A stretch of DNA of 45,425 bases, taken from positions 1 through 45,425 of the forward strand of contig JAABTS010000028.1 of NCBI GenBank assembly GCA_011389735.1, written 5' to 3'. Source of the stretch: Desulfobacteraceae bacterium (GTDB lineage Bacteria > Desulfobacterota > Desulfobacteria > Desulfobacterales > JAABTS01). The notes under the pieces were generated by a model. The model was given only the letters and a program-made list of their open reading frames with translations, ran no database searches and was not told the DNA's origin. The translations under genes and the position numbers were made by a program. The first letter of the stretch is position 1. The number at the start of each line of letters is the position of its first letter. Shown piece after piece: positions 623 to 32,690 of this stretch.

Positions 623-1977
623 AACGTTGGAAAAAACTTCTGATCATTCCGCCCGTGATCGCGGGGATCGTATTTTTCGTGTTTATGAAACAATCTTCCA
701 GAAAGCCCGCGCAAACCATCGCCAAAGAGCGAACTTACGCGGTCCGCTTTATTCCGGCGCCCAGAGTCGATGTCATACCCAGGAGTATCGGATACGGTTA
801 TGCGCAGCCGGGACAGACCTGGGACGGTATAGCCGAAGTGGGCGGAAAGATTGTTGAAATGCATAAGGATCTGAAAAAAGGAATCTTTGTCACCAAAGGA
901 ACCGTACTTCTTCGAGTCGATCCATCATCATACGGTCTTGCGGAAACCCGCGGCCAGGCAAATGTGATGAGTATCAACGCTCAATTGAACGAACTGGAAC
1001 AAAACAAGAAAAACACCGAACGGCTGCTGGCGGTGGAAAAGAAATCGCTCAAGCTGGCGTCTCAGGAACTGGAGCGAAAACGCGAACTTTTTGAAAGCGG
1101 TTACATTTCCGAGTCCGATCTCGAGCGGGAGGAAACAGCGTTTCTGTCTCAGCAAACCAGCGTCAACAACCTTCAAAACAGGCTTGACCTGATTCCCGCC
1201 CAGCGGAAAGCGCTGCTGGCGCAAAAGCAATCCGGAGTGTCAACGCTGGTCGATCAACAATTGACGCTCAAAAAAACGGAAATCATTGCGCCTTTCGACT
1301 GCCGGATATCATCGGTCAACGTCGAACTGGATCAGTTTGCGGGGACCGGCGCGGTGCTGATCGAAGCGGACAGTATCGACACGGCCGAAATCCCGGTTCA
1401 ATTATCACCGGTCATGTTCGCATCCCTGCTGCCGCGGATAGAAAATCCCATCAGGCTGATCGATTTCGACATGGATACTATCCGGCGGGCGATCGGTATC
1501 TCAGCCATTGTCCGGATTTCTCTGTTCGGACAACAAATTGAATGGCCCGCCCGATTTTCCCGAACCAGCGAATCCATGGATTTGAACACCGGGGCGCTGA
1601 CCGTTTACGTGGCGGTGGACGGCCCCTACGACAAGGTTATCCCGGGGAAACGCCCGCCGCTCATGAAAAACACCTATTGTGAAGTTGAACTGCGAGGACG
1701 GGCGATTATGGATCGGGTCGTCGTACCGAGATCCGCGCTTCATGAAGGCCGGGTTTTTGTTGTCAACAAGGAAAATCGTCTGGAAAAACGCATAATCGAA
1801 ATTGAGACGATACAGGGCGATATCATAGTGGTCAAGTCGGGCCTCGACAAAGACGAATCGGTTGTCGTTTCCGATTTAACGCCGGCCATTGACGGGATGC
1901 TCCTAGATCCCGTGAAAGACGAATCATCGCTCACGGAACTGATTGAAAGCGCATCCGGGGAGAATGCGGTAAAATGA
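619..1977 (+). CDS. RND efflux periplasmic adaptor (HlyD/membrane-fusion protein)
   Basis: A 452-residue protein with one N-terminal membrane anchor (about residues 7-24). A lipoyl-like half follows (around residues 75-100), then a long alpha-helical hairpin rich in Glu, Lys, Leu and Gln (about 115-220), the second lipoyl half (IIAPFDCRISSV), and beta-barrel and membrane-proximal domains. This is the order expected of the adaptor that links an inner-membrane RND transporter to a TolC-type duct. It overlaps both neighbours by four bases (ATGA at 619 and at 1974), so the three genes form one tightly coupled operon. It has an uncleaved-looking anchor rather than a lipobox. Confidence 0.9.
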   Translation: MKRWKKLLIIPPVIAGIVFFVFMKQSSRKPAQTIAKERTYAVRFIPAPRVDVIPRSIGYGYAQPGQTWDGIAEVGGKIVEMHKDLKKGIFVTKGTVLLRVDPSSYGLAETRGQANVMSINAQLNELEQNKKNTERLLAVEKKSLKLASQELERKRELFESGYISESDLEREETAFLSQQTSVNNLQNRLDLIPAQRKALLAQKQSGVSTLVDQQLTLKKTEIIAPFDCRISSVNVELDQFAGTGAVLIEADSIDTAEIPVQLSPVMFASLLPRIENPIRLIDFDMDTIRRAIGISAIVRISLFGQQIEWPARFSRTSESMDLNTGALTVYVAVDGPYDKVIPGKRPPLMKNTYCEVELRGRAIMDRVVVPRSALHEGRVFVVNKENRLEKRIIEIETIQGDIIVVKSGLDKDESVVVSDLTPAIDGMLLDPVKDESSLTELIESASGENAVK

Positions 1978-4900
1978 CATTTTTCAGATATTTTATCAGA
2001 GCCCTGGCCGCGCATCCGACCGCCGCCAACCTGTTCATGGCGGTTTTTATCCTCATGGGCGTTATCACGGTAGGCGACCTGAAACGCGAAACCTTTCCCG
2101 ATTTTTCACCCGAACAGGTGGAAATTACAGCGGCGTATCCCGGCGCGTCATCGATCGACGTGGAAACTTCGATTTGCCGGCGTATCGAGGATGCGATCGA
2201 AGATGTTCCGAACATCCATGAAATAACGAGCATCGCCCGGGAAGGCGTGGCGCGGGTCGTTGTGGAAATGCGCGACGACGCCGACGTTGTGCAGTTTTTT
2301 AACGACCTGAAAACCGAAGTCGAAACGATCACGGATTTTCCCGATAAAGTCGAGGATGTAATCGTAAAACCGCTCAACCGCACCGACCAGGTGCTTTCAA
2401 TCGCCGTGACCGGCCCCATGAATCCTATCGATCTGGAATTGTATTGCCAATCCCTGAAAGACCGCCTGAAACGACGGGAACTTATTTCCCAAATAGACTT
2501 GCTGGGGTTTTCGTCCCACCAGTTCCGAATCGAAGTCAAGCTGATCAAATTGATGACCCTCGGCCTTTCCGCGTCGGATCTCGCCGCCGTCATCGGATCT
2601 CAGAATATCGATCTGCCGGCGGGATCGATCGAAACCGCCGATTCAAATATCCTGATCCGATTCATCGAAGAAAAAAGAACTGTTCGAGATCTTGAAAATT
2701 TGGTGGTCGCGTCGGGCAAACACGGTGATGAGATCCTGCTAGGCGATATCGCAAAAATCACCCAACGGTTCAAGGATGAAGAAAACAAAATCCTGTTCAA
2801 CGGCCAACGGGCCGGAATGCTTCAAATCAACAAAACCAAGGCGGAAGACTCACTGAAAATCATGGACGACGTAATGGCGTTCCTCGACGAAGAACGAAAG
2901 CGCGTTCCGCCGGATGTCAAACTAGTTGTCACTCAGAACATTTCCGAAATCGTCCGGGACAGGCTGCAACTGCTCGTGGTCAACGGCGTCCAGGGGTTAA
3001 TCCTGGTGTTTCTCGCCATGTGGCTCTTTTTCTCGTTCCGGTTTTCATTCTGGGTCGCCTGGGGCCTGCCCATTTCTTTTCTGGGCACGATTTTCGTCAT
3101 GAAGCAAATCGGGTTTTCATTGAACATGATGACCATGGTGGGCCTCCTGATCGCTATCGGCCTTTTGATGGACGACGCAATAGTTATTTCCGAAAACATC
3201 GCCGCCAATATGGATAAAGGCAAAAAGCCCCTCGACGCGGTGAGCGACGGCGTTTCGGAAGTTTCGGCCGGCGTTGTTTCATCTTTTCTGACCACCTTGT
3301 TCATTTTCGGATCGCTGGCCGTATTTATCGAAGGGGATATCGGAAAAGTCCTTTACGCCGTGCCGGTAGTGCTGATCATTACCCTTAGCGTGAGCCTGAT
3401 CGAAGCTTTCTGCATTCTTCCTAACCACCTTTCCCATGCGCTGGAGCATTCAAGCCGGAGCGTAAAAGGCCGCCTGAATGTCAAGGTCGATTCCTCCGTC
3501 GTTTGGCTGAAAGAAAAAGCGCTCGGCCCAATTGTGGATACAGCGGTCAATTATCGTTATCTATTTATCGGGCTGGTGATTTTTACCTTTATCGTATCCA
3601 TCGCCATGGTCGCCGGAGGCGTTTTGAAAGTAAGGGCCTTTCCGGATACGGACGGCGACGTGCTTCAAGCCTATGTGCTCCTCCCCCAGGGCTCTCCCCT
3701 CGAACGAACGGAATCCGTCGTAGATCGGCTCATCGACGCCATAAAAAAATTGGATAAGGAATTTTCACCGCTTCAACCGGATCAACAGCAACTGATAAAA
3801 AATTACACGATCATTTACAACAGCAACGCCAACGCCGGTGAAAGCGGGCCTCATGCGGCGACCATATCCCTGGATTTGCTGAACGCTGAAATCCGAAACA
3901 CAACGATCGACGAAATCACCGGTAAATGGCGCGAATACGCTGGAACAATCCCCGACGCAACCAGCATTGTCTACACCGAACCCATGATCGGCCCCGCCGG
4001 ACTGCCGATTGAAATCCGGCTTCAAGGAACGCGGCTTGACCGCCTGAAAGCCGCGTCCAATCAGTTGATCGCCAAACTTTACGCCTACCAGGGCGTTCAG
4101 GATCTAGCCGACGATCTAAGGCCCGGCAAACCCGAACTGTTGATCACCCTCAATAAAGGCGCCCTGGCCAAAGGCCTGAACGCATCCATGATCGCAGGAC
4201 AACTCAGATCCGCATTCTACGGAATTACGGCCGACGAAATTCAAGCCGGAGAAAACAGCTATGATATCGATGTGCGCATCGCGGAATCAGACGCCGACAC
4301 CGTGTCCGATCTGGAACGATTTTACATCATTAAACCGGACGGCCAAAAAGTCCCGCTCCTGTCTGTCGTCGAAATTTCAGAAGGCCGCGGATATTCTCAA
4401 ATAACAAGGATCGACGGAATTCGAACCATCACCATCACCGGAGACGTAAACACGGAAAAAGCAAACACCGCGGAAATCATCAGGGATGTTCAAAACAATT
4501 TTCTGCCTGGCCTCAAAAAGGACTTCCCGGACATTCGAATATCCACCGAAGGCCAGGCCCGGGAAACCAAAACCTCCATGCGCTCCATGATGAAAGCCTT
4601 TATTATCGGAACCTTCGGCGTTTTCGTCCTGCTCAGCATCCAATTCAAAAGCTATTTTGAACCCCTTTTCATCATGTCCGCCATCCCGCTGGCGCTGATC
4701 GGCGTCATCTGGGGCCATATCTTCATGGGAATCGATCTGTGCATGCCGAGTGTCATGGGTTTGATTTCACTCGCCGGAATCGTCGTCAACGATTCCATTT
4801 TGCTGGTGACCTTTATCAAAGGACATCTGGCCCGGGGCGAGGAAATCGCCCAGGCAAGCAAAAACGCCAGCCGGGACCGGTTCCGAGCCGTCCTTTTGAC

Positions 4901-5096
4901 ATCAGCCACGACTGTTCTGGGGTTGCTTCCTCTGCTCACCGAACGCAGCCTCCAGGCCCAGATTCTGATCCCCCTGGCCTGTTCGATAGTATTCGGCCTT
5001 TTAGCCTCCACCGTGCTTATTCTTGTGGTCATACCAACCATTTACGCTATCAGCGGCGATTTCGACTTTATCGAAGTGGGCGCAAAATCGAAATAG
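1974..5096 (+). CDS. RND-family efflux transporter, inner-membrane pump (AcrB/MdtB-like)
   Basis: A 1040-residue protein, full length for the AcrB/HAE1 family. It has an N-terminal membrane segment after FRYFIRALAAHPTAAN, a large periplasmic loop, a block of membrane helices around residues 335-550, a second periplasmic loop and a second helix block near the C terminus. The proton-relay Asp pair of helix 4 is present (GLLMDDAIVISENI, Asp400/Asp401), so the pump is probably active. The family uses the proton gradient to extrude lipophilic compounds or metals; nothing in the sequence fixes the substrate, and the metal-type Met clusters of CusA are not obvious. It is the last gene of the operon; repeats follow it. 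Confidence 0.93.
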   Translation: MTFFRYFIRALAAHPTAANLFMAVFILMGVITVGDLKRETFPDFSPEQVEITAAYPGASSIDVETSICRRIEDAIEDVPNIHEITSIAREGVARVVVEMRDDADVVQFFNDLKTEVETITDFPDKVEDVIVKPLNRTDQVLSIAVTGPMNPIDLELYCQSLKDRLKRRELISQIDLLGFSSHQFRIEVKLIKLMTLGLSASDLAAVIGSQNIDLPAGSIETADSNILIRFIEEKRTVRDLENLVVASGKHGDEILLGDIAKITQRFKDEENKILFNGQRAGMLQINKTKAEDSLKIMDDVMAFLDEERKRVPPDVKLVVTQNISEIVRDRLQLLVVNGVQGLILVFLAMWLFFSFRFSFWVAWGLPISFLGTIFVMKQIGFSLNMMTMVGLLIAIGLLMDDAIVISENIAANMDKGKKPLDAVSDGVSEVSAGVVSSFLTTLFIFGSLAVFIEGDIGKVLYAVPVVLIITLSVSLIEAFCILPNHLSHALEHSSRSVKGRLNVKVDSSVVWLKEKALGPIVDTAVNYRYLFIGLVIFTFIVSIAMVAGGVLKVRAFPDTDGDVLQAYVLLPQGSPLERTESVVDRLIDAIKKLDKEFSPLQPDQQQLIKNYTIIYNSNANAGESGPHAATISLDLLNAEIRNTTIDEITGKWREYAGTIPDATSIVYTEPMIGPAGLPIEIRLQGTRLDRLKAASNQLIAKLYAYQGVQDLADDLRPGKPELLITLNKGALAKGLNASMIAGQLRSAFYGITADEIQAGENSYDIDVRIAESDADTVSDLERFYIIKPDGQKVPLLSVVEISEGRGYSQITRIDGIRTITITGDVNTEKANTAEIIRDVQNNFLPGLKKDFPDIRISTEGQARETKTSMRSMMKAFIIGTFGVFVLLSIQFKSYFEPLFIMSAIPLALIGVIWGHIFMGIDLCMPSVMGLISLAGIVVNDSILLVTFIKGHLARGEEIAQASKNASRDRFRAVLLTSATTVLGLLPLLTERSLQAQILIPLACSIVFGLLASTVLILVVIPTIYAISGDFDFIEVGAKSK

Positions 5097-5167
5097 AACC
5101 TTTCGTTCTCGATGGACGGGGAAATGGAATGATGCTCTTCCGCTAATAAGTAGAAGGCGCCGGTATG

Positions 5168-5212
5168 CTATAGCTTTTCAGGAATTAAATTTCATAAGGC
5201 GGCGGACGCGGG
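5168..5212 (-). repeat. Partial copy of the ~100-bp palindromic repeat family
   Basis: CTATAGCTTTTCAGGAATTAA and the following TTTCATAAGGCGGCGG match one arm of the full-length copy at 32584-32690; the second arm is missing. The surrounding gene-free stretch 5097-5457 otherwise holds 14-bp direct repeats and a REP palindrome, and no gene I can support. Confidence 0.6.
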
Positions 5213-5227
5213 ATTGTTGAATTTTGT

Positions 5228-5276
5228 GTTCAATGCTAAATTATTTATGTTGAATGCTAAATGTTGAATGCTAAAT
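5228..5276. repeat. 14-bp direct repeats (GTTGAATGCTAAAT)
   Basis: Three copies: 5228-5241 (one mismatch, GTTCAATGCTAAAT), 5249-5262 and 5263-5276. The last two are exact and in tandem. The function is unknown; it may be slippage or remnant repeat DNA beside the RAYT island. Confidence 0.7.
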
Positions 5277-5407
5277 GGGGGACTCACATTCAACATCCAA
5301 CTCGCAACCCAACCAGATCAGCGTATCTTGTGGCCGCGCTTTCATCAAAAGGAAGGCAACGGCCTGAAAATTCGGAGAACATCTCATTCGCGGCGGCAGT
5401 CAGCGGC

Positions 5408-5440
5408 GTAGGGTGGGTGGAGCGATAGCGGAACCCACCA
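5408..5440. repeat. REP palindrome left of the RAYT gene
   Basis: GTAGGGTGGGTGGAGCG followed by ATAGCGGAACCCACCA is an imperfect palindrome (GGTGGGT paired with ACCCACC). Nearly identical copies lie at 6102-6134 and, inverted, at 6232-6264, so the palindromes frame the transposase gene as RAYT-associated REPs usually do. Confidence 0.8.
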
Positions 5441-5457
5441 TTTGAATACATCCCACA

Positions 5458-6006
5458 TCATTCGCCTCCCATTCCTTCGGGAAATTCCTCAACCGAGCCC
5501 GCCCATGATTCGTTATAAACGCCTCTTTTCACAAAATGGTGAAAACTCGAATGGGGCCAATCTTTTGGGGCCGTCACCAAGCCGTGTTTTACAGGGTTGT
5601 AATGAATATAATCAATATGCACCCGGTAATCATTCTCATCTCGAATCGTGTGTTCAAAAAAGCGCCTTTGCCATATTCCCTTTTCGCCTTTTTTTCGCAT
5701 TGATACCGATGGTTTCACTGGCGGTTCGCCAATATTTGAGATGTATTCCGATGTAAAGCAGCCCTTTGTTTCTTTCCATCGCGTGGAATAATCGGAATCT
5801 TGTTCGGGCAGTCTCCGTATGCAATGGAGATGTTCGGGAAGAATGACAATTGCCTCAATGACGAACGGTTTTTCAGACATGCATTCCCGGAAGCTTTCTC
5901 GCAGAATGCCAATGGCCTCGCCGCTCAGTATTCGTTGCCGTTTATAGGTCTCCACCGTGAAAAAATAGGTCCCGCCCTTAACAAAATTTCGACGATAATT
6001 TGGCAT
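5458..6006 (-). CDS. REP-associated tyrosine transposase (RAYT, Y1_Tnp family)
   Basis: About 182 residues from the start at MPNYRRNF, chosen because the family begins with a motif of this kind; an upstream in-frame Met at 6057 gives only an unlikely extension. Recognisable family signatures are the early YFFTVETYKRQRIL segment, the HUH-type metal-binding motif in LPEHLHCI, the W-x-R-R-F-x-E-H-x-I block, and the catalytic Tyr region with YIHYNPVKHG near the C terminus. RAYTs are single-copy relatives of IS200/IS605 transposases that act on REP palindromes by single-strand cleavage. Three such palindromes flank this gene. The frame is intact and all catalytic positions seem present, so it is probably functional. 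Confidence 0.92.
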   Translation of the reverse strand: MPNYRRNFVKGGTYFFTVETYKRQRILSGEAIGILRESFRECMSEKPFVIEAIVILPEHLHCIRRLPEQDSDYSTRWKETKGCFTSEYISNIGEPPVKPSVSMRKKGEKGIWQRRFFEHTIRDENDYRVHIDYIHYNPVKHGLVTAPKDWPHSSFHHFVKRGVYNESWAGSVEEFPEGMGGE

Positions 6007-6101
6007 ATATGTGTTCCGTGTTTCGATATGACCGGCGCCGATGCGCCCGGGCGGCAATCATGTCATGGCCACATACCACAAAAATCATGCGGAGACAAGT
6101 G

Positions 6102-6134
6102 GTAGGGTGGGTGGAGCGCCAGCGGAACCCACCA
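6102..6134. repeat. REP palindrome right of the RAYT gene (first of an inverted pair)
   Basis: GGTAGGGTGGGTGGAGCGCC then AGCGGAACCCACCA has the same orientation as the 5408-5440 copy. With the inverted copy at 6232-6264 it forms a BIME-like pair about 100 bp apart. Confidence 0.8.
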
Positions 6135-6231
6135 TTTGACACCCGCCCCCGCCAATTATTTCTTCGCCGTTCGACGCCCCTGTCATTCAATTCACTGTTT
6201 GCCGCAAACCGGTCGGGTATCTTTTCATGCG

Positions 6232-6264
6232 TGGTGGGTTCCGCTAGCGCTCCACCCACCCTAC
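6232..6264. repeat. REP palindrome right of the RAYT gene (inverted copy)
   Basis: TGGTGGGTTCCGCTAGCGCT then CCACCCACCCTAC is the reverse complement of the other two REP copies with few changes. The stretch 6007-6663 has no gene I can support; it holds the two REPs and the larger palindrome at 6449-6561. Confidence 0.8.
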
Positions 6265-6448
6265 ATGAGCTTGAAAAATTCTTGTAATAAAAATTTGTTT
6301 TGATAATGTTTCTGAAAGTATAGCGGCGCCCACCCCAACGTTCCAGCGAGCCGTCGGGAAAACAACGCCAATCCGGCTTTGTCGATTAACAACAGAGTGA
6401 TGGGACTTGCATGCGTTTCTAATGAAGGGCTTGATTCTAAGATCGACC

Positions 6449-6561
6449 GGAGCGCCGCCAGGGTAAGCCGGGGGTTGCAAACCCCCTCTGAGCGGGTCTC
6501 TTGCGCTGAGCGGGTTTGTAACCCGCGACTTACGAAGTGCGGCCTTCGGCTTTGGCGCTCC
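6449..6561. repeat. Compound palindromic element (113 bp)
   Basis: The outer arms are GGAGCGCC (6449-6456) and GGCGCTCC (6554-6561). Inside are two smaller palindromes, GGGGGTTGCAAACCCCC and CGGGTTTGTAACCCG, separated by CTGAGCGGG-type repeats. It resembles structured intergenic repeats but is distinct from the REPs and from the 100-bp family. It sits about 100 bp upstream of the chosen start of the WD40 gene. Confidence 0.65.
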
Positions 6562-6663
6562 AGAGCAACCCGAGAAATTATGGCCGAAATTAGAACCAAG
6601 CTTCTAATGAATCCGGAGAACCGGCGTCCCCGTTTCCGGAATACAAAAATTGAGGTTAATATC

Positions 6664-9600
6664 ATGACTGAACCCGGAGAACTGGCTGAAAGATATAATG
6701 AGGCGTCCGAAAGCGGCGAAACTCTAGAATTCTGGATTCCCGCGAAGCATGTGATTTCAAAAGGCGTTCTGGGCGTTGTCAAATCGGGAATCGTTTTCAT
6801 CACCGCCGATTATTCGTCTGAATTGAAAGTGGACCGATGGCCGTTTGATCGGATACGGAGCGTTCGTATGGTCGAATCTCTTATTTCGCCTCAGATTATC
6901 CTCGATCTAAAAGATAAAAACCTATATTTCAGAGTCGTGAACGCAAAGGACGCGGGACCTTTCAAGTCCGCCGTCGACGCCATGCCGGCGCAGCAAAAAA
7001 CTATGGAGCATGAAAAAGGCGGCGTTTTCGACATCGAGGAGATTGAAATCGAGACTGAATTCGCGGATTTTGAGGAACCGCCGGACGATCCGTCTGAGGA
7101 TGCCGCTGATAGGGAACCGTTTCCTAAAACCCCAAAATATTCCGGCTTCAACGATTCATACAGCCGGACGCCAAAAATCATCGGATGTCTTGCGCTTATT
7201 GTAATTTTATCCGCGGCCGGATGGTTTATTCAAAGCGTCGTGGTTTATTTGAAAGACGTGGATGTTCACAAATCAATGACGGCGGAGCGATCCGGCGGTG
7301 AAAAATCCGTTACGCCGGCTAATAGCGGCCTTGAAGATTCAGAATCTACAGAGCCGCTGGAAACGGTGACGAAATACTCTGAATCCATCCGAAAAATCGA
7401 ATCCGGCAAGATCATTTTTCATTCTTTCGATTCGGCGTCCGATATCAGGCTTCGGGCCATCCGGATTCCAATGGCTGGAATCGACGCCGAAAGTCCGGGC
7501 GAACTCCCCGATTTGAAGATATACACCAGCCGTATTCACGGTAAACGAAATCTAAGGCCCGACATGGTTATCGCATCGCCGATCCGGAAAAAGTTCTTTG
7601 AAACAAACGTTCTTTTACCGGGGACGGGAAAAAAAGCGCATTGGGCGGACTATGAATTCGGCGCCGAAGTGATTTTAAAAAGCGGAACTTATTGGATCGG
7701 TCTGGAGCCGAATCCGGAGGGGCCGGCCGGAATCCGTTTGTTCAAGGACAGCCGGAAGGAAACCCTGAACCGGCAAACCGGCGGTTATGACTCGGTCACG
7801 GACCACTCTATCCGGGGCGGAGATCGTATTTCGTTTATTGTATCCGGGAGCAAACCGGAGACAGGCAAACCTTTGCTCGCCGAACCCGTCCCAGGCGTTT
7901 TCTTGCTTCGGAGTTTCAGGCACGACCTGGGCGATCCGGCCGGAATCGCGATGGGGCCTTCGGAGGAAATCGCGCTGATCGGAAATTCGGCGGTAATAAG
8001 GTGGGACTCGAACCGGATTTTATTAAAGGACATCGAGACTTCCACAAAACGGCGTTTTCATCCGATCCGATTCGGCCCGGACGGAACATCGCTGATCTGG
8101 GCGTCTGACAAATCCGTTAAATGGGCGCCCTTTGACCGGCCGGATGAAATCCGGGAATTCAAGGCCGAAGGAATGGATCTTTCCGCCATGGATATCAGCC
8201 CGGACGCCGCATATATCGTCACCGGAAAATTTGACGGCCGGATACAAATCTGGAACGTCACCGAAGGCTCGGCGTCCGACCCCATGAAGTTACATGGCGG
8301 ACCCGTCCGGGTGGTTTCCATCCACCCCGGAGGGAAAATGTTCGCCGCCGGAGGCAGGGATCTGAATGTCCGGCTGTGGTCAATGGACGGAAAGGAAATC
8401 ACCGTTTTGAAAGGCCATTGGGCCGAGATCGCCGCCATAAGGTTCTCTTCGGACGGAAAAACGCTGGTTTCAGGCAGTGTGGACGGGAATATCAAAATTT
8501 GGGATCTTTCGAACTACGCGCTTAAAACCACATTTCTGACTCCAACCCAGCAATTGACGGATCTGGCGCTGGCTCCGGACGGCGAAACGCTGTTCGCTTC
8601 AAGCGGAAACCGCATGATCAGCGTGTGGGATATTCCAGGGCGGCGGGAAATCAGCCGTTTCAAGACGCATTCCCCGTATATTCAATCCATGTATTCACGG
8701 CCGGGACTGTCGGCGATTCGGCCGGACGGGCGAACGCTTGTATCCACCGCCGGGTATTCAAGTCTTAAACTTTGGAGGCTGGATTACGAGAGACTCCGAA
8801 ATTCAGGCCGGCGTTTCAAAGGTTCGCCTGAAAGGGAGCCTGTCCGGTCTTTGTTGGAAATTGATCCTATTGTATCGGAGACGAACCGTTTTCATGGAAA
8901 AACCGCGATTGTCGCCGAATCGGCGGTAGGCCCGGGCGGCGAAATTATCGCCGTAGCCGGTGAAAAGGGCGGTATCGAAGTGTGGAACAGGAAAGGCGAG
9001 CTTGTCGGCCGTTTTCGAACCGTTTTGAAAGATATTAAATGTATGGCGGTCAGTCCGGACAATGAAATGCTGGCTGTCGGCGGCGATGGAGGCGCCGTTG
9101 TTCTTCGAATCGCGGATGGACAGGAATTGTCCAGATTCAGTGAAGGGACTTTTGTGTTAAGTTTGACATTCAGCATCGATTCCCTGCGCCTGGGCGCCGG
9201 ACGCGGCGACGGCGCCGTTGTTATTCGTGAGCCGGCGGATAAAAAGGTGCTGAAACGCTTTGAGGCGGGACGGATAACGGCCATGAAAAACGTCGTCATG
9301 AGCGGGGATCAAAAATGGATTGCAAGCCGGTCCTATCAAAAATTGCACCTGTGGGACGCCGAAAGCGGCGAACCGGTTGATTTGTTCGAAGAACCGGCGG
9401 ATAATTCGGCTTTCATCGATTTCATTCCCGGCGGAAACACTCTGATCGCGGCCGGAAAGGAAAGGGTCGTCAAGGCGAATATGAACGGCGGCATGGAATC
9501 GACGGTGTTCGACCTGGGATGGACTCCGTCAAGAACCGCCGCTCTGTCTCCGGACGGAAAACTGATGGCCCTGGCGGACGCAGAAACCATTTTATTATGG

Positions 9601-10224
9601 GATGTTGAAACCAACAAGCCGGCTCTAGCTTTTAAATCCGGACATTTCTCCCGGATATGCGGTCTCGCGTTCGGACCGGATTCCGGCAACCTGACATCTC
9701 TGGCGGAAAACAACACCATCAAGACCTGGCGAGTGGATGTAAAAAAACTTTTGGGCCGGAATCGATCCTCTGATGACCGCGGTATTCTATACAGTACCGG
9801 CGATACTCCTTCCAACGGAGGCGGCGGCCTTGGATATAACGGAGAAACGGAATATTTCGAACTGGAAAAGACTTCGAAAATCGAACGAATCGAATTTTAC
9901 ATGAAAGACATCGATATTGTCGATCCGTATTCGTTTCCCGTATTGCGTATCCGGGATGTTTCGGACGGAGGGGTCATTGCGGCCGCAACTTCCGCGGACG
10001 CCCGGAACGCCTATTTCGAGCCCCGTCATTACCACAATTCGTATTACTGGGTGGGATTCAATTTCAGCAGCGGCATTGTTCTGGAAAAAGGAAAATATGA
10101 AATTGAACTGGAATCGCCCGCCCCGCTGAGGGCTGGTTTCATTACCGTGATCAAAGCCGAAAAGGATCGGAAGCGATGCTTGTTTAAAGTGTTTGGAGAT
10201 GCGATTCAATCGAGCAATTCATGA
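6664..10224 (+). CDS. Membrane-anchored WD40 repeat protein (1186 aa)
   Basis: The start chosen is MTEPGELAERYN, preceded by GAGGTTAATATC; an open frame reaches back to 6379 but would translate the palindromic repeat, so I reject it. Residues 1-120 form a small beta-rich domain, followed by an acidic linker, one membrane segment (about 175-195, IIGCLALIVILSAAGWF) and an extracytoplasmic part. That part has a beta-sandwich-like domain, then at least nine WD-type blades (IQIWNV, VRLWSM, IKIWDL, ISVWDI, LKLWRL, IEVWNR, LHLWDA, ILLWDV, IKTWRV), enough for about two propellers, and a second beta-sandwich-like domain at the C terminus. WD40 propellers are protein-interaction platforms; no enzyme motif is visible. 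The 3' end overlaps the convergent PafA/Dop-like gene by 19 bp. Confidence 0.85.
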   Translation: MTEPGELAERYNEASESGETLEFWIPAKHVISKGVLGVVKSGIVFITADYSSELKVDRWPFDRIRSVRMVESLISPQIILDLKDKNLYFRVVNAKDAGPFKSAVDAMPAQQKTMEHEKGGVFDIEEIEIETEFADFEEPPDDPSEDAADREPFPKTPKYSGFNDSYSRTPKIIGCLALIVILSAAGWFIQSVVVYLKDVDVHKSMTAERSGGEKSVTPANSGLEDSESTEPLETVTKYSESIRKIESGKIIFHSFDSASDIRLRAIRIPMAGIDAESPGELPDLKIYTSRIHGKRNLRPDMVIASPIRKKFFETNVLLPGTGKKAHWADYEFGAEVILKSGTYWIGLEPNPEGPAGIRLFKDSRKETLNRQTGGYDSVTDHSIRGGDRISFIVSGSKPETGKPLLAEPVPGVFLLRSFRHDLGDPAGIAMGPSEEIALIGNSAVIRWDSNRILLKDIETSTKRRFHPIRFGPDGTSLIWASDKSVKWAPFDRPDEIREFKAEGMDLSAMDISPDAAYIVTGKFDGRIQIWNVTEGSASDPMKLHGGPVRVVSIHPGGKMFAAGGRDLNVRLWSMDGKEITVLKGHWAEIAAIRFSSDGKTLVSGSVDGNIKIWDLSNYALKTTFLTPTQQLTDLALAPDGETLFASSGNRMISVWDIPGRREISRFKTHSPYIQSMYSRPGLSAIRPDGRTLVSTAGYSSLKLWRLDYERLRNSGRRFKGSPEREPVRSLLEIDPIVSETNRFHGKTAIVAESAVGPGGEIIAVAGEKGGIEVWNRKGELVGRFRTVLKDIKCMAVSPDNEMLAVGGDGGAVVLRIADGQELSRFSEGTFVLSLTFSIDSLRLGAGRGDGAVVIREPADKKVLKRFEAGRITAMKNVVMSGDQKWIASRSYQKLHLWDAESGEPVDLFEEPADNSAFIDFIPGGNTLIAAGKERVVKANMNGGMESTVFDLGWTPSRTAALSPDGKLMALADAETILLWDVETNKPALAFKSGHFSRICGLAFGPDSGNLTSLAENNTIKTWRVDVKKLLGRNRSSDDRGILYSTGDTPSNGGGGLGYNGETEYFELEKTSKIERIEFYMKDIDIVDPYSFPVLRIRDVSDGGVIAAATSADARNAYFEPRHYHNSYYWVGFNFSSGIVLEKGKYEIELESPAPLRAGFITVIKAEKDRKRCLFKVFGDAIQSSNS

Positions 10225-11885
10225 ACAGCCTCCTGAACAGCCCATTTCACATATGGGTCGTCCTGAGGAAGTGACAATAATCGATCCACGGCGTTTTCCC
10301 CGGAGACGGCGGCCACGGCCCGCACCGCTGCATTTCGCACCCTATTATGCGGATCGGATTTGACTACATCGATCAGTTTTGAGATGTGCTGTTTCAATCC
10401 AATTTGTTGAAACGCACGGACCGCCCTGATTCTGATTTCGGAGGACTTATGGTTTAGAGCGGCGGTCAAATGGGAAACGATCGAATCATCCGCATATTCG
10501 CCCGAAACTTCCGCTGAAAAGAACTGAAATGGGTCGTCCATCGTAATCGGCCGGCCGTCGATTTCGGCTCTGTCCCAATTTTCGACCATTACCTGAGCAT
10601 CCCCCCGGCGGGCCAGAGAAATCAGATCCCCCCGGATTTTGGCTCGGGTAAACGGCGGCGGTTTTAAAATAGCGCGTTCGATTTCATCCGGTTCGAATTC
10701 GGGATCGCCGTCTTCACCGGCCATTCGAAAAAACAGGCCTTCATTTAAACAAATCTGGTGGTATCGGATATCGATCTGCAACAGATCGTCCAGGACCGGC
10801 GAATTCGTTAAATCATCGGTCCAATGCAGGCCGGACGCGTTCAATAATCGATCCGTCAAGTGTTTTTTGGTGATCCAGTCCACCTTTTTAAACAGCCGTA
10901 TGGGATTTTCTTCAAGCATGTCGAGTGTTGTTTCCCATTCCCTGAGAATATCCTCTTCGTCGGATTCCGGATTCACTCGTGAAAAATACTGTTGGGCGCG
11001 CCGCAGGTAAATTCTCTGAATTTGTACGGCGGTCAAATTTCCGCCGTCCCGCAGCGGAATACATATCCGGCATGACGGATCACGGGAAATGCGCCTCATG
11101 CCATTGACCGGATCAGCCAGATGGGGAATATCGTCAAAATCGAGATCTTCGATGATCCGGAGAAGCAGACCGGTGGTTCCGAGTTTCATCCATGTGGCCC
11201 ATGCGGACATGTTGGCGTCGCCGAGGATCAAATGGATTCGCCGTGTATTGCCGCTTGAAAGGGGTTCATTTTCCCGGCTGATGTTGAACAGCGCCCGATC
11301 CGTCCTGGTTTCATTGGAAATCGGCGAATCGATGAAATCCGCGCGCTGCATAATTTGAAATCCGATTCCGTCTTCACGGTTCCGCCCGAAACCAACCCGG
11401 CCCGACCCTGAATAAATCTGGCGGGTCGCTAAAAAAGGAGTGAGATACCGATAGGTCAGGCGAAGCTGATCCCCAGCGCCCAACCAGTCCGTTTGTTTCA
11501 ATGCGGAAAAATTTTCGTGGCATCCATAGGTATGGCCTTCACTGTCGACGTTGTTTTTTATAACGAACAGTTTACCCGGAAATCCGTGTCGACGGATCCG
11601 CCGCTCGGTTTCGGACAGGCTCCGGGCGATGGCGTAATCGGAAGCTTTGTCGTATAAAGCGGCTTCCCGGGCGCTTCGACATTCCGGAAGAGACCATTCC
11701 GCGTGACCTTCGTCGTCGTAAAATTTTGAACCGTTAAGGAGAAAACCGCTTTGTTCGATCCCGTAGTGATGTTTCAGAGAGGCGCTCAGGGCGTCGATCA
11801 AAAATTCCGGCTTGGGGAAAGGGGGATGGGTCGAGTAGTACGAAACAGCGTATTCGGTTTCAATACTGAAAATACGGTCTTTCAA
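10206..11885 (-). CDS. PafA/Dop-family (Pup ligase/deamidase) protein with C-terminal HEAT repeats
   Basis: A 559-residue member of the carboxylate-amine-ligase branch that attaches or removes Pup. Visible family motifs are the N-terminal IETEY (ATP/Mg Glu residues), NGSKFYDDEGHAEWS with the catalytic Asp region, LPEC, FVIKNNVDSEGHTYGCHENF, TRQIYSGSGRVG, GDANMS and LGTTGLLLRIIE. Several blocks (SGSGRVGFG, ISRDPS, QRIYLRR) read like Dop, whereas YGCHENF and the absence of the long Dop loop read like PafA, so the activity (ligase, deamidase or both) is undecided. Residues about 466-559 are an extra HEAT-type helical repeat region (IRIRAVRAFQQIG, VRNAAVRAVAAV) absent from classical PafA or Dop. 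The start is TTG, two bases after the stop of the Pup-like gene, with an AGGAGAG inside that gene as a probable binding site. Confidence 0.93.
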   Translation of the reverse strand: MKDRIFSIETEYAVSYYSTHPPFPKPEFLIDALSASLKHHYGIEQSGFLLNGSKFYDDEGHAEWSLPECRSAREAALYDKASDYAIARSLSETERRIRRHGFPGKLFVIKNNVDSEGHTYGCHENFSALKQTDWLGAGDQLRLTYRYLTPFLATRQIYSGSGRVGFGRNREDGIGFQIMQRADFIDSPISNETRTDRALFNISRENEPLSSGNTRRIHLILGDANMSAWATWMKLGTTGLLLRIIEDLDFDDIPHLADPVNGMRRISRDPSCRICIPLRDGGNLTAVQIQRIYLRRAQQYFSRVNPESDEEDILREWETTLDMLEENPIRLFKKVDWITKKHLTDRLLNASGLHWTDDLTNSPVLDDLLQIDIRYHQICLNEGLFFRMAGEDGDPEFEPDEIERAILKPPPFTRAKIRGDLISLARRGDAQVMVENWDRAEIDGRPITMDDPFQFFSAEVSGEYADDSIVSHLTAALNHKSSEIRIRAVRAFQQIGLKQHISKLIDVVKSDPHNRVRNAAVRAVAAVSGENAVDRLLSLPQDDPYVKWAVQEAVHELLD

Positions 11886-11887
11886 GA

Positions 11888-12154
11888 CTACTGGCCGCTC
11901 TCCTGCCTGAATGAACGGACAAAGGCTTCAGATGAAATTTCCGCAGCCTCGCTTCGTTTCACCGAACGGCCGACAACGCCGGCGATTGTTTGTCGTGATG
12001 TATAACCGGCTAGAATTTCATCGATAACATCCGGATCGCCGCTTGAATCGAACAGCGGCGGTTCTTCCCGCTGTTCGCTTGTTTGGAAAACTTGTGGGCT
12101 CCGGTTTTGTGTATACGTTTTTTTCCGTTTAATGCGAACTTGTTTATGTTCCAT
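11888..12154 (-). CDS. Pup/UBact-like protein modifier (88 aa)
   Basis: The start ATG at 12154 is preceded by GAGGAGCGGTTT, a good ribosome site; a longer frame to 12217 lacks one. The product is small, polar and largely Gly/Ser/Glu/Arg-rich in its first half. Its tail (EAFVRSFRQESGQ) aligns with the C terminus of mycobacterial Pup (FVRAYVQKGGQ) and with the YRQ-x-x-G-(Q/E) ending I recall for UBact proteins. An acidic DVIDEIL segment resembles the DDLLDEID stretch of Pup. The last residue is Gln (codon CAG), so by analogy the tail would need deamidation to Glu before ligation. It is directly upstream of, and two bases from, the PafA/Dop-like gene, which supports the assignment strongly. Lys residues are near the N terminus. 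Confidence 0.85.
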   Translation of the reverse strand: MEHKQVRIKRKKTYTQNRSPQVFQTSEQREEPPLFDSSGDPDVIDEILAGYTSRQTIAGVVGRSVKRSEAAEISSEAFVRSFRQESGQ

Positions 12155-12199
12155 AAACCGCTCCTCGATGCTTTGACACAAACTTCCTGAAATTAAAAT

Positions 12200-12310
12200 A
12201 CGCCTTCCGAAAGTCAAATTTCACTGTTTTGCCGACCCCGGATAAGGAATAGTATTTTTTTCGAGCCCGCCGTCTTGTGAAATTCAATTTCTAAAAAAAC
12301 CTGTATCATA
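12200..12310 (+). repeat. ~100-bp palindromic repeat, copy 2
   Basis: Arms CTTCCGAAAGTCAAATTTCAC and TTGTGAAATTCAATTTCTAA flank a centre with TTTTGCCGACCCCGGATA and CGAGCCCGCCGTC. It lies directly upstream of the Pup-like gene; with copy 3 it fills the gene-free stretch 12155-12495. A remnant arm (CTTCCTGAAATTAAAATA) precedes it at 12183. Confidence 0.75.
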
Positions 12311-13600: not shown

Positions 13601-13702
13601 ACAGGTTTTCAGAAATTAAATCTCACAATTCGGCCGGTCCGGGACAACACCATTGCTATATTCCAGACCTGCCATTCAGTGAAATCTAATTTCCCGAAAA
13701 CG
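13601..13702 (-). repeat. ~100-bp palindromic repeat, copy 4 (reverse orientation)
   Basis: GGTTTTCAGAAATTAAATCTC and CAGTGAAATCTAATTTCCCG are the two arms; the centre has GGTCCGGGAC and CCAGACCTGCC. It lies just upstream of the fdhA ribosome-binding site and would be in its mRNA leader. The rest of the gene-free stretch 13228-13740 shows only the candidate promoter. Confidence 0.75.
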
Positions 13703-13740: not shown

Positions 13741-16700
13741 ATGGATGTTACGCGAAGGAGTTTTATTAAAATCACCGGCGTAACCACGGCCGGCCTTGCA
13801 ATCGGCAAGCTCGGTTTTGATTTGTCGCCGGTAAAAGCGCATGCGCAAATGCTCAAGACGGCGTACGCCCGTGAAACGACGACGATCTGCTGTTATTGCG
13901 CGGTAGGATGCGGAGCCATTGTTCACACCAGTTTAAAAGGAGACGGTCGTGTCATCAATATCGAAGGCGATCCGGATCATGTTATCAACAGAGGATCTCT
14001 ATGCCCAAAAGGGGCGTCCTTGTCGCAGCTCGTAGAAAACGAAAACCGCCTTACCGATCCCATGTACCGCGCTCCTTATTCCAGTGAATGGAAAAAGGTG
14101 TCCTGGGATTGGGCGCTGGATCAAATCGCCAGGCGTGTAAAAAAAACCAGGGATGCTAATTTTACCGCGAAAAACGAGAAAGGCGATGTCGTCAACCGGA
14201 CTACGGCGATCGCTTCGGTCGGTTCGGCGGCCATGGATAATGAAGAATGCTGGATTTATCAGGCGCTCATGCGATCCCTTGGTCTGGTATACATAGAGCA
14301 TCAGGCCCGTATTTGACACAGCGCCACTGTTGCGGCTCTGGCAGAGTCGTTTGGACGCGGCGCAATGACCAATCATTGGATTGACATTAAAAACAGTGAT
14401 TGTATTTTGATTATGGGAAGCAACGCTGCTGAAAACCATCCGGTTTCTTTCAAATACGTCACTGAAGCCATGGCGCGAGGCGCCAAGTTGATCAGCGTTG
14501 ATCCCCGATTCACCAAAACCTCATCGAGGGCGGACATTTATGCGCCGTTGAGATCCGGCACGGATATCGCCTTTCTAGGCGGAATGATCAAGTATATCCT
14601 TGATAATGATCTGTATAATTTCGAATATGTCAGCCAGTACACCAACGCTTCGTTTATCGTGACCAAAGAATTCAAATTCGATGACGGAATTTTTTCCGGA
14701 TTCGACCCCAAAACTCGATCCTACGACAAATCCAAATGGAGTTTTGAAATGGACGAGAACGGGGTTCCGCAAATGGACAGAGAATTGAAAGATTCCAGGT
14801 GTGTGTTCCAGCTTTTGAAAAAGCACTTTAAAAGATACAAGACGAGTGTCGTATCCAAAATCACCGGAACTTCGGAAGCGGATCTGAAAAAAGTTTATGA
14901 AACCTATGCGGCCAGCGGCGCCCCCGGCAAAGCGGGAACCGTCATGTACGCCATGGGTTGGACGCAACATACTGTCGGGGTTCAAAATATTCGAACCATG
15001 GCCATCATTCAGTTGCTTTTGGGCAACATGGGCGTGGCCGGCGGCGGTGTCAACGCTTTGAGAGGCGAATCCAACGTTCAGGGATCGACCGATCACTGCT
15101 TGTTGTGGCATATCTGGCCGGGATACCTTGGGACTCCCCGCGCATCCATGGAAACCCTCGATGATTACAACATCAAAAATACTCCTTCGAGCAACGATCC
15201 GATGAGCGCCAACTGGTGGCAAAACAAGCCGAAATATGTCGTCAGCCTGTTGAAATCGTTTTTCGGCCAAAACGCGACAAAGCATAATGACTTCGGATAT
15301 GGCTGGCTGCCCAAAGTGGACGAAGGCGTTCATTATTCATGGCTCGATTTGTTTGACGACATGTATAAAGGCGATATTGAAGGTTTTTTCGCCTGGGGCC
15401 AGAATCCGGCTTGCAGCGGAACCAACGCTGGCAAGAACCGGGAAGCCATGAAAAAATTAAAATGGATGGTTAATGTAAACCTGTTCGATAATGAAACCGG
15501 ATCTTTTTGGAACGGGCCCGGAATGAATCCATCGACCATTGAGACCGAAGTATTCATGCTTCCCGCCTGTGTATCGGTGGAAAAAGAAGGGAGCATCACG
15601 AACAGCGGAAGATGGATGCAATGGCGGTATCAGGGACCGAAACCGCTTGGCAACAGTAAACCGGACGGGGATATTATCCTGGAACTCGGCCATAGAATCA
15701 AAGAACAGTATCGTAAAGGGCACGGTGTTTTTCCGGATCCCATTCTCAACCTCAAATGGGACTACAGTACGGACGGCGCTTATGATCCGCACAAAGTCGC
15801 CAGGGAAATCAACGGATTTTTTCTGGAGGATGTGACCATTAAGGGCAAGCAATATAAAAAAGGAACATTGGTTCCCAGTTTTGCTTTCCTGCAGGATGAC
15901 GGATCGACATCATCGGCGAACTGGCTGTATTGCAACAGCTACACGGAAAAAGGCAATATGTCGACTCGGCGGAGTCAGAAGGACGCTCCGAACAATATCG
16001 GTTTATATCCGGAATTCTCCTGGTGCTGGCCCGTCAACCGCAGAATAATTTACAATCGTGCTGCTGTTGATCCCAAGGGAAACCCATGGGATAAGGAACA
16101 TTGGGTCATCAGATGGAAAAACGGGGGATGGGAAGGCGATGTTCCCGACGGCGGCTGGCCGCCGCTTCAAAACGAAGACGGAACCGTCAACCCCAATTCC
16201 CGATATCCGTTTATCATGAGAAAACACGGCCATGGACAGATTTTTGGGCCCGGACGTGCGGACGGGCCGTTTCCCGAGCATTACGAACCGCTTGAGTGTC
16301 CGATTGCGGAAAATCTCATGCCCGACAATAAACGGCTTGTCAACCCCACTGCGGCGATTTACGGCACTGACGCGGACGCTCATTTTACATGCGACGCCAG
16401 ATTTCCGTTTGTCGGCACCACGTATCGGACGGTCGAACACTGGCAGACAGGCCTTATGACCAGACCCCAGCCCTGGTTGCTCGAACTCCAACCGCAGATG
16501 TTTGTCGAAATGAGTGAGCAACTGGCCGAATTAAGGGGTTTTAAAAATGGGGAGCGCGTCAAGGTTGTATCCGCCAGAGGGTCGGTGGAATGCACCGCCA
16601 TGGTGACCAAACGCTTTCAACCATTTAACATTGACGGCGTGGATGTCCATCAGGTCGGATTACCCTGGCATTTTGGATGGCGATGGCCAAATGACGGCAG

Positions 16701-16797
16701 TGAAGAGAGCGTCAATCTGCTCACTCCGCCGACAGGGGACCCGAATACTCGAATTCCGGAAACAAAGGCCTTCATGGTCAATGTCGTCAAACTTTAA
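13741..16797 (+). CDS. fdhA: Formate dehydrogenase catalytic subunit, selenoprotein, Tat-exported
   Basis: 1018 residues when the in-frame TGA at 14314-14316 is read as selenocysteine (residue 192). The frame continues exactly, and the residues after it (HSATVAALAESFGRGAMTN) match formate dehydrogenases, where Sec binds the Mo/W of the bis-pyranopterin cofactor and is followed by His. The start has AAAGGAGGG nine bases upstream. The N terminus has a Tat signal (TRRSFIK) and hydrophobic stretch. A [4Fe-4S] site follows (Cys50-x2-Cys53-x3-Cys57, then Cys88). The C-terminal part is the molydopterin-dinucleotide-binding domain. It oxidises formate to CO2 in the periplasm and passes electrons to FdhB just downstream. 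No cytochrome or membrane subunit is adjacent, so c-type cytochromes encoded elsewhere are the likely acceptors. Confidence 0.95.
14314..14355 (+). promoter_or_regulatory. Sec codon and candidate bacterial SECIS element
   Basis: TGA at 14314 is followed by CACAGCGCCACTGTTGCGGCTCTGG. Codon by codon this parallels the E. coli fdhF SECIS (CAC, then GTTGCAGGTCTG), including the GTTGC-G-apical motif at the same distance from the TGA. A short CTG/CAG stem can be drawn, but I could not compute the fold. Confidence 0.65.
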
Positions 16798-17560: not shown

Positions 17561-17660
17561 CTTTCCGGTAATTCAATTTCATTGCTTTGTCGGCCTGGGA
17601 TATACGAGTGGTGTTATCCCAGGCCTTCCGTGTCGTGAAATTGAATTTCTGAAATCCTTT
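17561..17660 (+). repeat. ~100-bp palindromic repeat, copy 5
   Basis: CTTTCCGGTAATTCAATTTC with GTGAAATTGAATTTCTGAAA as arms; inner stem GGCCTGGGATA (17602-17612 area) against TATCCCAGGCC. This is one of the best-preserved copies and lies between fdhB and its terminator. Confidence 0.8.
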
Positions 17661-32583: not shown

Positions 32584-32690
32584 CTATAGCTTTTCAGGAA
32601 TTTAATTTCACAAGTCGGCGGGCCAGGAATCATAGTTTTCGTATATCCCGGCCCGACAACGCAGTGAAATTCCATTTCTGGAAAGCTATA
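32584..32690 (-). repeat. ~100-bp palindromic repeat, copy 8 (reverse orientation, well preserved)
   Basis: Starts CTATAGCTTTTCAGGAATTT and ends TTTCTGGAAAGCTATA; inner stem GGGCCAGGAAT against ATATCCCGGCCCG. The near-perfect ends CTATAG/GCTATA mark the element boundary. It lies in the leader of the NifU-like gene. Confidence 0.85.

Follow-up and report, generated by a model that had tools for sequence, protein, structure and literature searches.

Genes and features of the locus

The window, by which we mean the whole 45,425-nucleotide stretch of DNA that was analyzed, carries on its minus strand a short open reading frame followed by a PafA/Dop-family gene. We assigned the following features to this pair:

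12161..12166, minus strand: pup ribosome-binding site GAGGAG, 6 nt 5' of the ATG, read from the sequence
11888..12154, minus strand: pup, encoding a predicted 88-residue Pup-like modifier with the C terminus GQ (ATG at 12154, stop TAG at 11890-11888)
11888..11923, minus strand: C-terminal tail motif FVRSFRQESGQ plus stop, scored with a tail matrix; one occurrence in the genome
10206..11885, minus strand: pafA, encoding a putative Pup ligase (PafA/Dop family) of 559 residues with a TTG start (PF03136; placed with PafA in the tree, 99/98)
11712..11714, minus strand: codon for ligase residue Asp58, which lines up with the catalytic residue Asp64 of Corynebacterium glutamicum PafA
10221..10508, minus strand: HEAT-repeat domain at the C-terminal end of the ligase, spanning approximately residues 460-555 (HEAT_2, 46.5 bits; alignment; structural model)

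Translation of the minus-strand open reading frame gives a product that starts MEHKQVRIKRKKTYTQ and has the C-terminal end SSEAFVRSFRQESGQ. The two genes are on the same strand and separated by exactly 2 bases (pup stop at 11888, pafA TTG at 11885). The initial annotation had described an 88-residue protein with a Pup-like tail, 2 bases upstream of a PafA/Dop-family gene, and the open reading frame, the gap, and the PF03136 match confirm that description. The product also agrees with the definition of Pup given by Iyer et al. 2008: its 88 residues are inside the 50-90 residue range, its C terminus is of the G[EQ] type, and the adjacent gene belongs to the PafA family.

Pup forms two helices in complex with Dop or PafA (PMC8599861). 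For the pup product, a single-sequence AlphaFold2 model (mean pLDDT 64 overall) predicted disorder in residues 1-40 and helices at residues 41-51 and 75-86; the prediction broadly resembles the Pup outline of a disordered body and two short C-terminal helices, but with a longer linker between the helices. At the level of sequence, the reading as a Pup-type modifier beside its ligase is supported as by far the best one for the 88-residue protein.

Several other elements surround the gene pair. Just 5' of pup is one copy of a dispersed, roughly 82-bp element whose ends are palindromic (GTGAAATYNAATTTC); copies are located at 12208-12291, 13612-13693, 17568-17649, and 32597-32678, and its half-sites have 18 matches in the window versus 2.3 expected. 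A large WD40-repeat protein gene (6379-10224, plus strand) is convergent with pafA, with a 19-base overlap at the pafA end. Farther along, a formate-dehydrogenase-like gene (13741-16797, plus strand) has one in-frame TGA at about 14314, at a position that suggests selenocysteine.

Tail statistics and profile searches

We built a tail matrix of 17 positions from six Pup/UBact-like tails, leaving out the window protein, and scored it on the C termini of all open reading frames, 30 or more residues long, from the window and the compared loci (4,883 C termini). On this matrix the window tail, EAFVRSFRQESGQ, scored 26.2 bits. The known Pup/UBact-like tails, each left out in turn, scored 14.5-44.3 bits, and the best non-Pup C terminus among the 4,883 scored 7.9 bits. 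The maximum among 2,000,000 random tails was 15.6 bits, with none reaching the value of the window tail. When searched as DNA, the degenerate pattern F[VL]..F.Q..G[EQ]-stop had one match in the 6.5-Mb genome, which is the pup site, and a reversed-pattern control had zero. The modifier had been labeled Pup/UBact-like in the initial annotation. Of the two halves of this label, Pup is the better match: FVRSF.Q..GQ is closer to the Pup of Actinobacteria than it is to the tail of a UBact-like protein at a related locus (L021, described below).

The remainder of the protein is not recognized by public models. Neither Pfam nor NCBIfam models matched the 88-residue protein at E <= 10, including the Pfam model PF05639 (curated cut-off 27 bits), and a search of its own genome with PF05639 gave just weak matches, all elsewhere than pup. 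A phmmer search against the PDB returned no match either. Outside the tail, these PF05639 and PDB searches detected no similarity of the window Pup to other Pups. A related Pup of 64 residues, from locus L020, is likewise below the PF05639 cut-off (15.4 bits versus 27). The expectation that the first half would be unlike Pup, and that ordinary homology searches might miss the protein, was borne out by the blank results from Pfam, NCBIfam, and the PDB. A tag that public models fail to recognize suggests that Pup genes outside Actinobacteria are under-counted.

That the first 60 residues match nothing could be taken as a sign of a chance open reading frame or of actinobacterial contamination. 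The tail, however, scores 26.2 bits against a chance maximum of 15.6, and its motif occurs once in the genome. The tetranucleotide composition of the window contig correlates at r = 0.97 with that of C62, a contig of the same genome that carries additional pupylation genes (see below), compared with 0.2 for the actinobacterium Nonomuraea. Pieces of the window correlate with each other at 0.96-0.98, and the 2-kb pup-pafA piece fits the window composition as well as other window pieces do. We therefore rejected contamination on the basis of host-matching composition, and the tail statistics, motif uniqueness, and composition together refute, for practical purposes, both a chance frame and a contaminant.

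Assignment of the window enzyme as a probable ligase

The PafA/Dop-family protein of the window matched PF03136 (Pup_ligase) with an E value of 2.1e-100 and 337 bits, against a cut-off of 25, and the nearest ligases are just 33-39% identical to it. The E.E ATP-binding motif is present as E9-T-E11, and the counterpart of Asp58, Asp64 of C. glutamicum PafA, carries an Asn substitution in 4bjr. By alignment, the HEAT-repeat domain was not found in any other PafA/Dop protein examined. An AlphaFold2 model built from a three-row alignment had a mean pLDDT of 51 overall and a helical C-terminal domain with pLDDT of about 82, and we used it solely for that domain. A protein-binding domain fused to the enzyme could make substrate choice by a Pup ligase directly testable.

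Family models do not by themselves separate ligase from depupylase: the window enzyme scored 286.7 bits with the Dop model TIGR03688 (cut-off 492) and a nearly equal 281.1 bits with the PafA model TIGR03686 (cut-off 551). The top PDB match was Dop, not PafA. Both observations would fit an enzyme that is a second depupylase/deamidase, with ligation carried out by the other PF03136 protein of the genome, on C62, or by neither. Individual residues, assigned to Dop or PafA type following Table 1 of PMC7947786, fall on both sides. The spacing after the catalytic Asp58 (no extra residue), Ser64, and Pro66 are Dop-like, whereas other features are PafA-like: the Dop-loop is absent, Phe48 and the Ser of the alpha-loop are of PafA type, and the segment leading up to Trp437 is longer, with extra residues common to the window enzyme and PafAs. 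The Dop-loop is missing from the C62 enzyme as well, according to the alignment.

In a tree of 18 proteins, the window protein grouped with PafA, on a long branch, and the C62 protein grouped with Dop; support was 99/98 in each case. AU tests rejected the two as a sister pair (p 0.026), but a position of the window protein with Dop was not rejected (p 0.16), so its placement on the PafA branch is not exclusive. Gene order agrees with the tree. The pup gene is directly 5' of the window enzyme, as in the pup-pafA arrangement of proteasome-less Corynebacterium, and the C62 enzyme is directly 3' of an ATPase, as in mpa-dop; this order therefore favors the ligase role for the window protein (PMC3511204). 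Based on the tree position (99/98) and gene order, we infer that the window enzyme is a ligase and not a depupylase, and we consider the reverse assignment unlikely.

Pupylation genes on a second contig and the search for a proteasome

The genome has two PF03136 genes, the window ligase and one on C62, where two adjacent genes were assigned:

C62 (L005), 6169-8418: Mpa/ARC-type ATPase, 749 residues (TIGR03689, E 1.7e-139)
C62, 8447-9949: Dop-like gene, the second PF03136 gene of the genome, directly after the ATPase, with best scores to Dop

The best PDB matches of the C62 ATPase are mycobacterial proteasome-associated ATPases. Its TIGR03689 score of 465.8 bits is under the cut-off of 504.75, and the match is in pieces around an insert of 87 residues that separates the Walker A part from the remaining AAA domain; at this place the mycobacterial protein has 10 residues. 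The GQYL tail is absent, and the C terminus reads VEIHLEI instead. No 20S genes were found: PF00227 searched against the genome (96.9% complete, 477 contigs) gave just HslV, beside HslU. With HslV as the sole proteasome-fold gene found in this 96.9% complete assembly, we rejected a 20S proteasome as improbable, though a 20S operon could lie in the missing part. DsrD is also encoded in the genome, in keeping with a dissimilatory sulfate reducer.

From these gene contents, the genome appears to encode a complete pupylation set that is proteasome-less and split over two loci, a reading to which we assign a probability of roughly 80%. On this reading, a genome of the sulfate-reducer type would hold the full set of pupylation genes but no proteasome. 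Alongside Corynebacterium it would be the second case, and a distant one, where Pup tagging must have a use other than supplying substrates to a 20S proteasome.

Related systems

PafA/Dop homologues were found in 3 of 291 genomes in the order and in 5 of 395 genomes in a sample of the phylum. The initial annotation had tied its reading to conservation of the tail among orthologs at the same place, and the motif does recur there, upstream of PafA, in four further systems of the same phylum (L018, L019, L020, and L021). Two of the genomes with related systems, G584 and G365, are 8-9% contaminated and are used with care. In L019 and L020 the genes for ATPase, Dop, Pup, and PafA are clustered; their Pup ends FLD[RE]F[KR]Q.EGE, and a 20S gene was not recognized among their listed open reading frames. 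At L021 (G365, 1087-10577), the ATPase, Dop, and PafA genes are accompanied by one for a UBact-like protein with the C-terminal end SRQRGGE. JAB-like and E1-like ThiF genes adjoin them, placing two kinds of protein-tagging genes at one locus. L018 (G095, 7897-8953, minus strand) has kept pup, and the PafA gene that follows is without about the first 215 residues; decay therefore happens in this group.

Directly 3' of PafA, three of these loci encode a conserved protein of 217-251 residues (L018, 7233-7988, minus strand; L019, 7057-7710, minus strand; L020, 12817-13533, plus strand). It contains the motifs MLHE.QHH and DIYKCLHQGEFG.GH and has no Pfam match. This protein is possibly a new pupylation partner.

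Searches farther afield returned little. A contig scan with the window ligase alone as query returned solely Actinomyces denticolens, none of the viral contigs scanned with four ligases/Dops encodes a relative, and further systems were not found in the sampled orders and classes of G365, G336, and G584. A human fecal scaffold labeled Bacteriophage sp. (MT835496.1, L033) has the order dop-pup-pafA, and its Pup (ETFVRSFVQKGGQ) has 9 of the last 13 residues in common with EAFVRSFRQESGQ. Given its actinobacterium-like composition, this is probably a mislabeled bacterial scaffold, and we rejected it as a phage-borne system.

The rare and patchy distribution, the truncated PafA in L018, and the long branch of the window protein would be consistent with a decaying remnant gained by transfer, transcribed or not, that has no present function. 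Against this, all four genes in the genome studied here are open, the catalytic Asp and active-site motifs are kept, pup has a good ribosome-binding site and a tail intact to the last residue, and composition is fully host-like. We regard a functionless remnant as quite improbable.

Proposed role of the tag

Because the pupylation set is present and no proteasome was found, tagging probably serves unfolding or regulation of proteins, not proteasome feeding. In characterized systems, Dop deamidates the terminal Gln of Pup, PafA forms an isopeptide bond via the phosphorylated gamma-carboxylate, and Dop reverses the bond; the pupylation ATPase takes hold of Pup and unfolds the tagged protein (PMC3511204, PMC8599861). 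For the genome studied here we infer deamidation, conjugation, the ligase and depupylase roles, and the fate of tagged proteins as follows. Pup (88 residues) would be made with a C-terminal Gln, which the Dop-like C62 enzyme would deamidate to Glu. The window ligase would then phosphorylate this Glu with ATP and form an isopeptide bond to target lysines, the HEAT domain possibly contributing to target selection, and Dop would remove Pup again. The N terminus of the Mpa/ARC-type ATPase would grip Pup, and the tagged proteins would be unfolded or remodeled without 20S. Pup binding to the C62 ATPase is a guess because there is no detectable Pup similarity outside the tail. Because 20S was not found, the nearest precedent is ARC-driven disassembly of pupylated ferritin in C. 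glutamicum (PMC12288473).

Alternatively, tagged proteins could be degraded, with the ATPase or its substrates handed to another chambered protease, e.g., HslV. HslUV is present in the genome, and the 87-residue insert in the AAA domain of the C62 ATPase is unusual. However, HslV already has a partner in the adjacently encoded HslU, the ATPase ends VEIHLEI without a GQYL-type tail, and the role of pupylation in the known proteasome-less case is nondegradative (PMC12288473), making degradation improbable. The fuller proposal, in which pupylation in an anaerobic sulfate reducer is purely nondegradative, with a HEAT-guided ligase and an insert-altered ATPase that remodels proteins without a protease, is tentative.

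Comparison with known systems

Corynebacterium has pup directly before pafA, has kept the ATPase, and has lost 20S, with no C-terminal proteasome motif on the ATPase (PMC3511204). The system described here is like that of C. glutamicum in having Pup directly before PafA, in keeping ATPase and Dop, in that no 20S genes were found, and in lacking the C-terminal proteasome-binding motif of the ATPase. It differs in being spread over two loci, in its 88-residue Pup ending SGQ, in the HEAT domain on the ligase, in the ATPase insert, and in a Dop without the Dop-loop. The mycobacterial Pup-proteasome system (Pup, Dop, PafA, Mpa, and 20S) has the same type of tail, FVR.[FY].Q..GQ, and homologous enzymes and ATPase, but in the genome studied here 20S was not found and the body of Pup is unlike.

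UBact has the tail RQ.[GST]G[EQ], and its clusters have been described together with proteasome genes. The window system shares a Gram-negative-type host and that tail pattern with UBact, as does the tail SRQRGGE of L021; the window tag, however, ends GQ rather than GE and keeps the FVR of Pup. None of the NCBIfam models matched the window Pup, and 20S genes were not found in the genome.

Like the window system, the membrane-type ligases of Plesiocystis and Rhodopirellula (Iyer et al. 2008) represent Pup-PafA outside Actinobacteria with no linked proteasome genes. Those ligases have four transmembrane segments and a membrane-protein neighbor, whereas the window ligase has a HEAT domain instead. 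It had been proposed that a Desulfobacterota copy widens the known range of pupylation. This was overstated, because Pup outside Actinobacteria was already reported in 2008 (PMC2588565), including in the "deltaproteobacterium" Plesiocystis, today classed in Myxococcota, and sporadic PafA/Dop matches in Proteobacteria and other phyla have been mentioned (PMC7947786). A text search of the literature for pupylation together with Desulfobacterota returned, within the searchable text, just a marine community survey with one mention. Pupylation outside Actinobacteria is thus already known; what is new here is a predicted proteasome-less system split over two loci, in which Pup is diverged and the ligase bears a HEAT domain.
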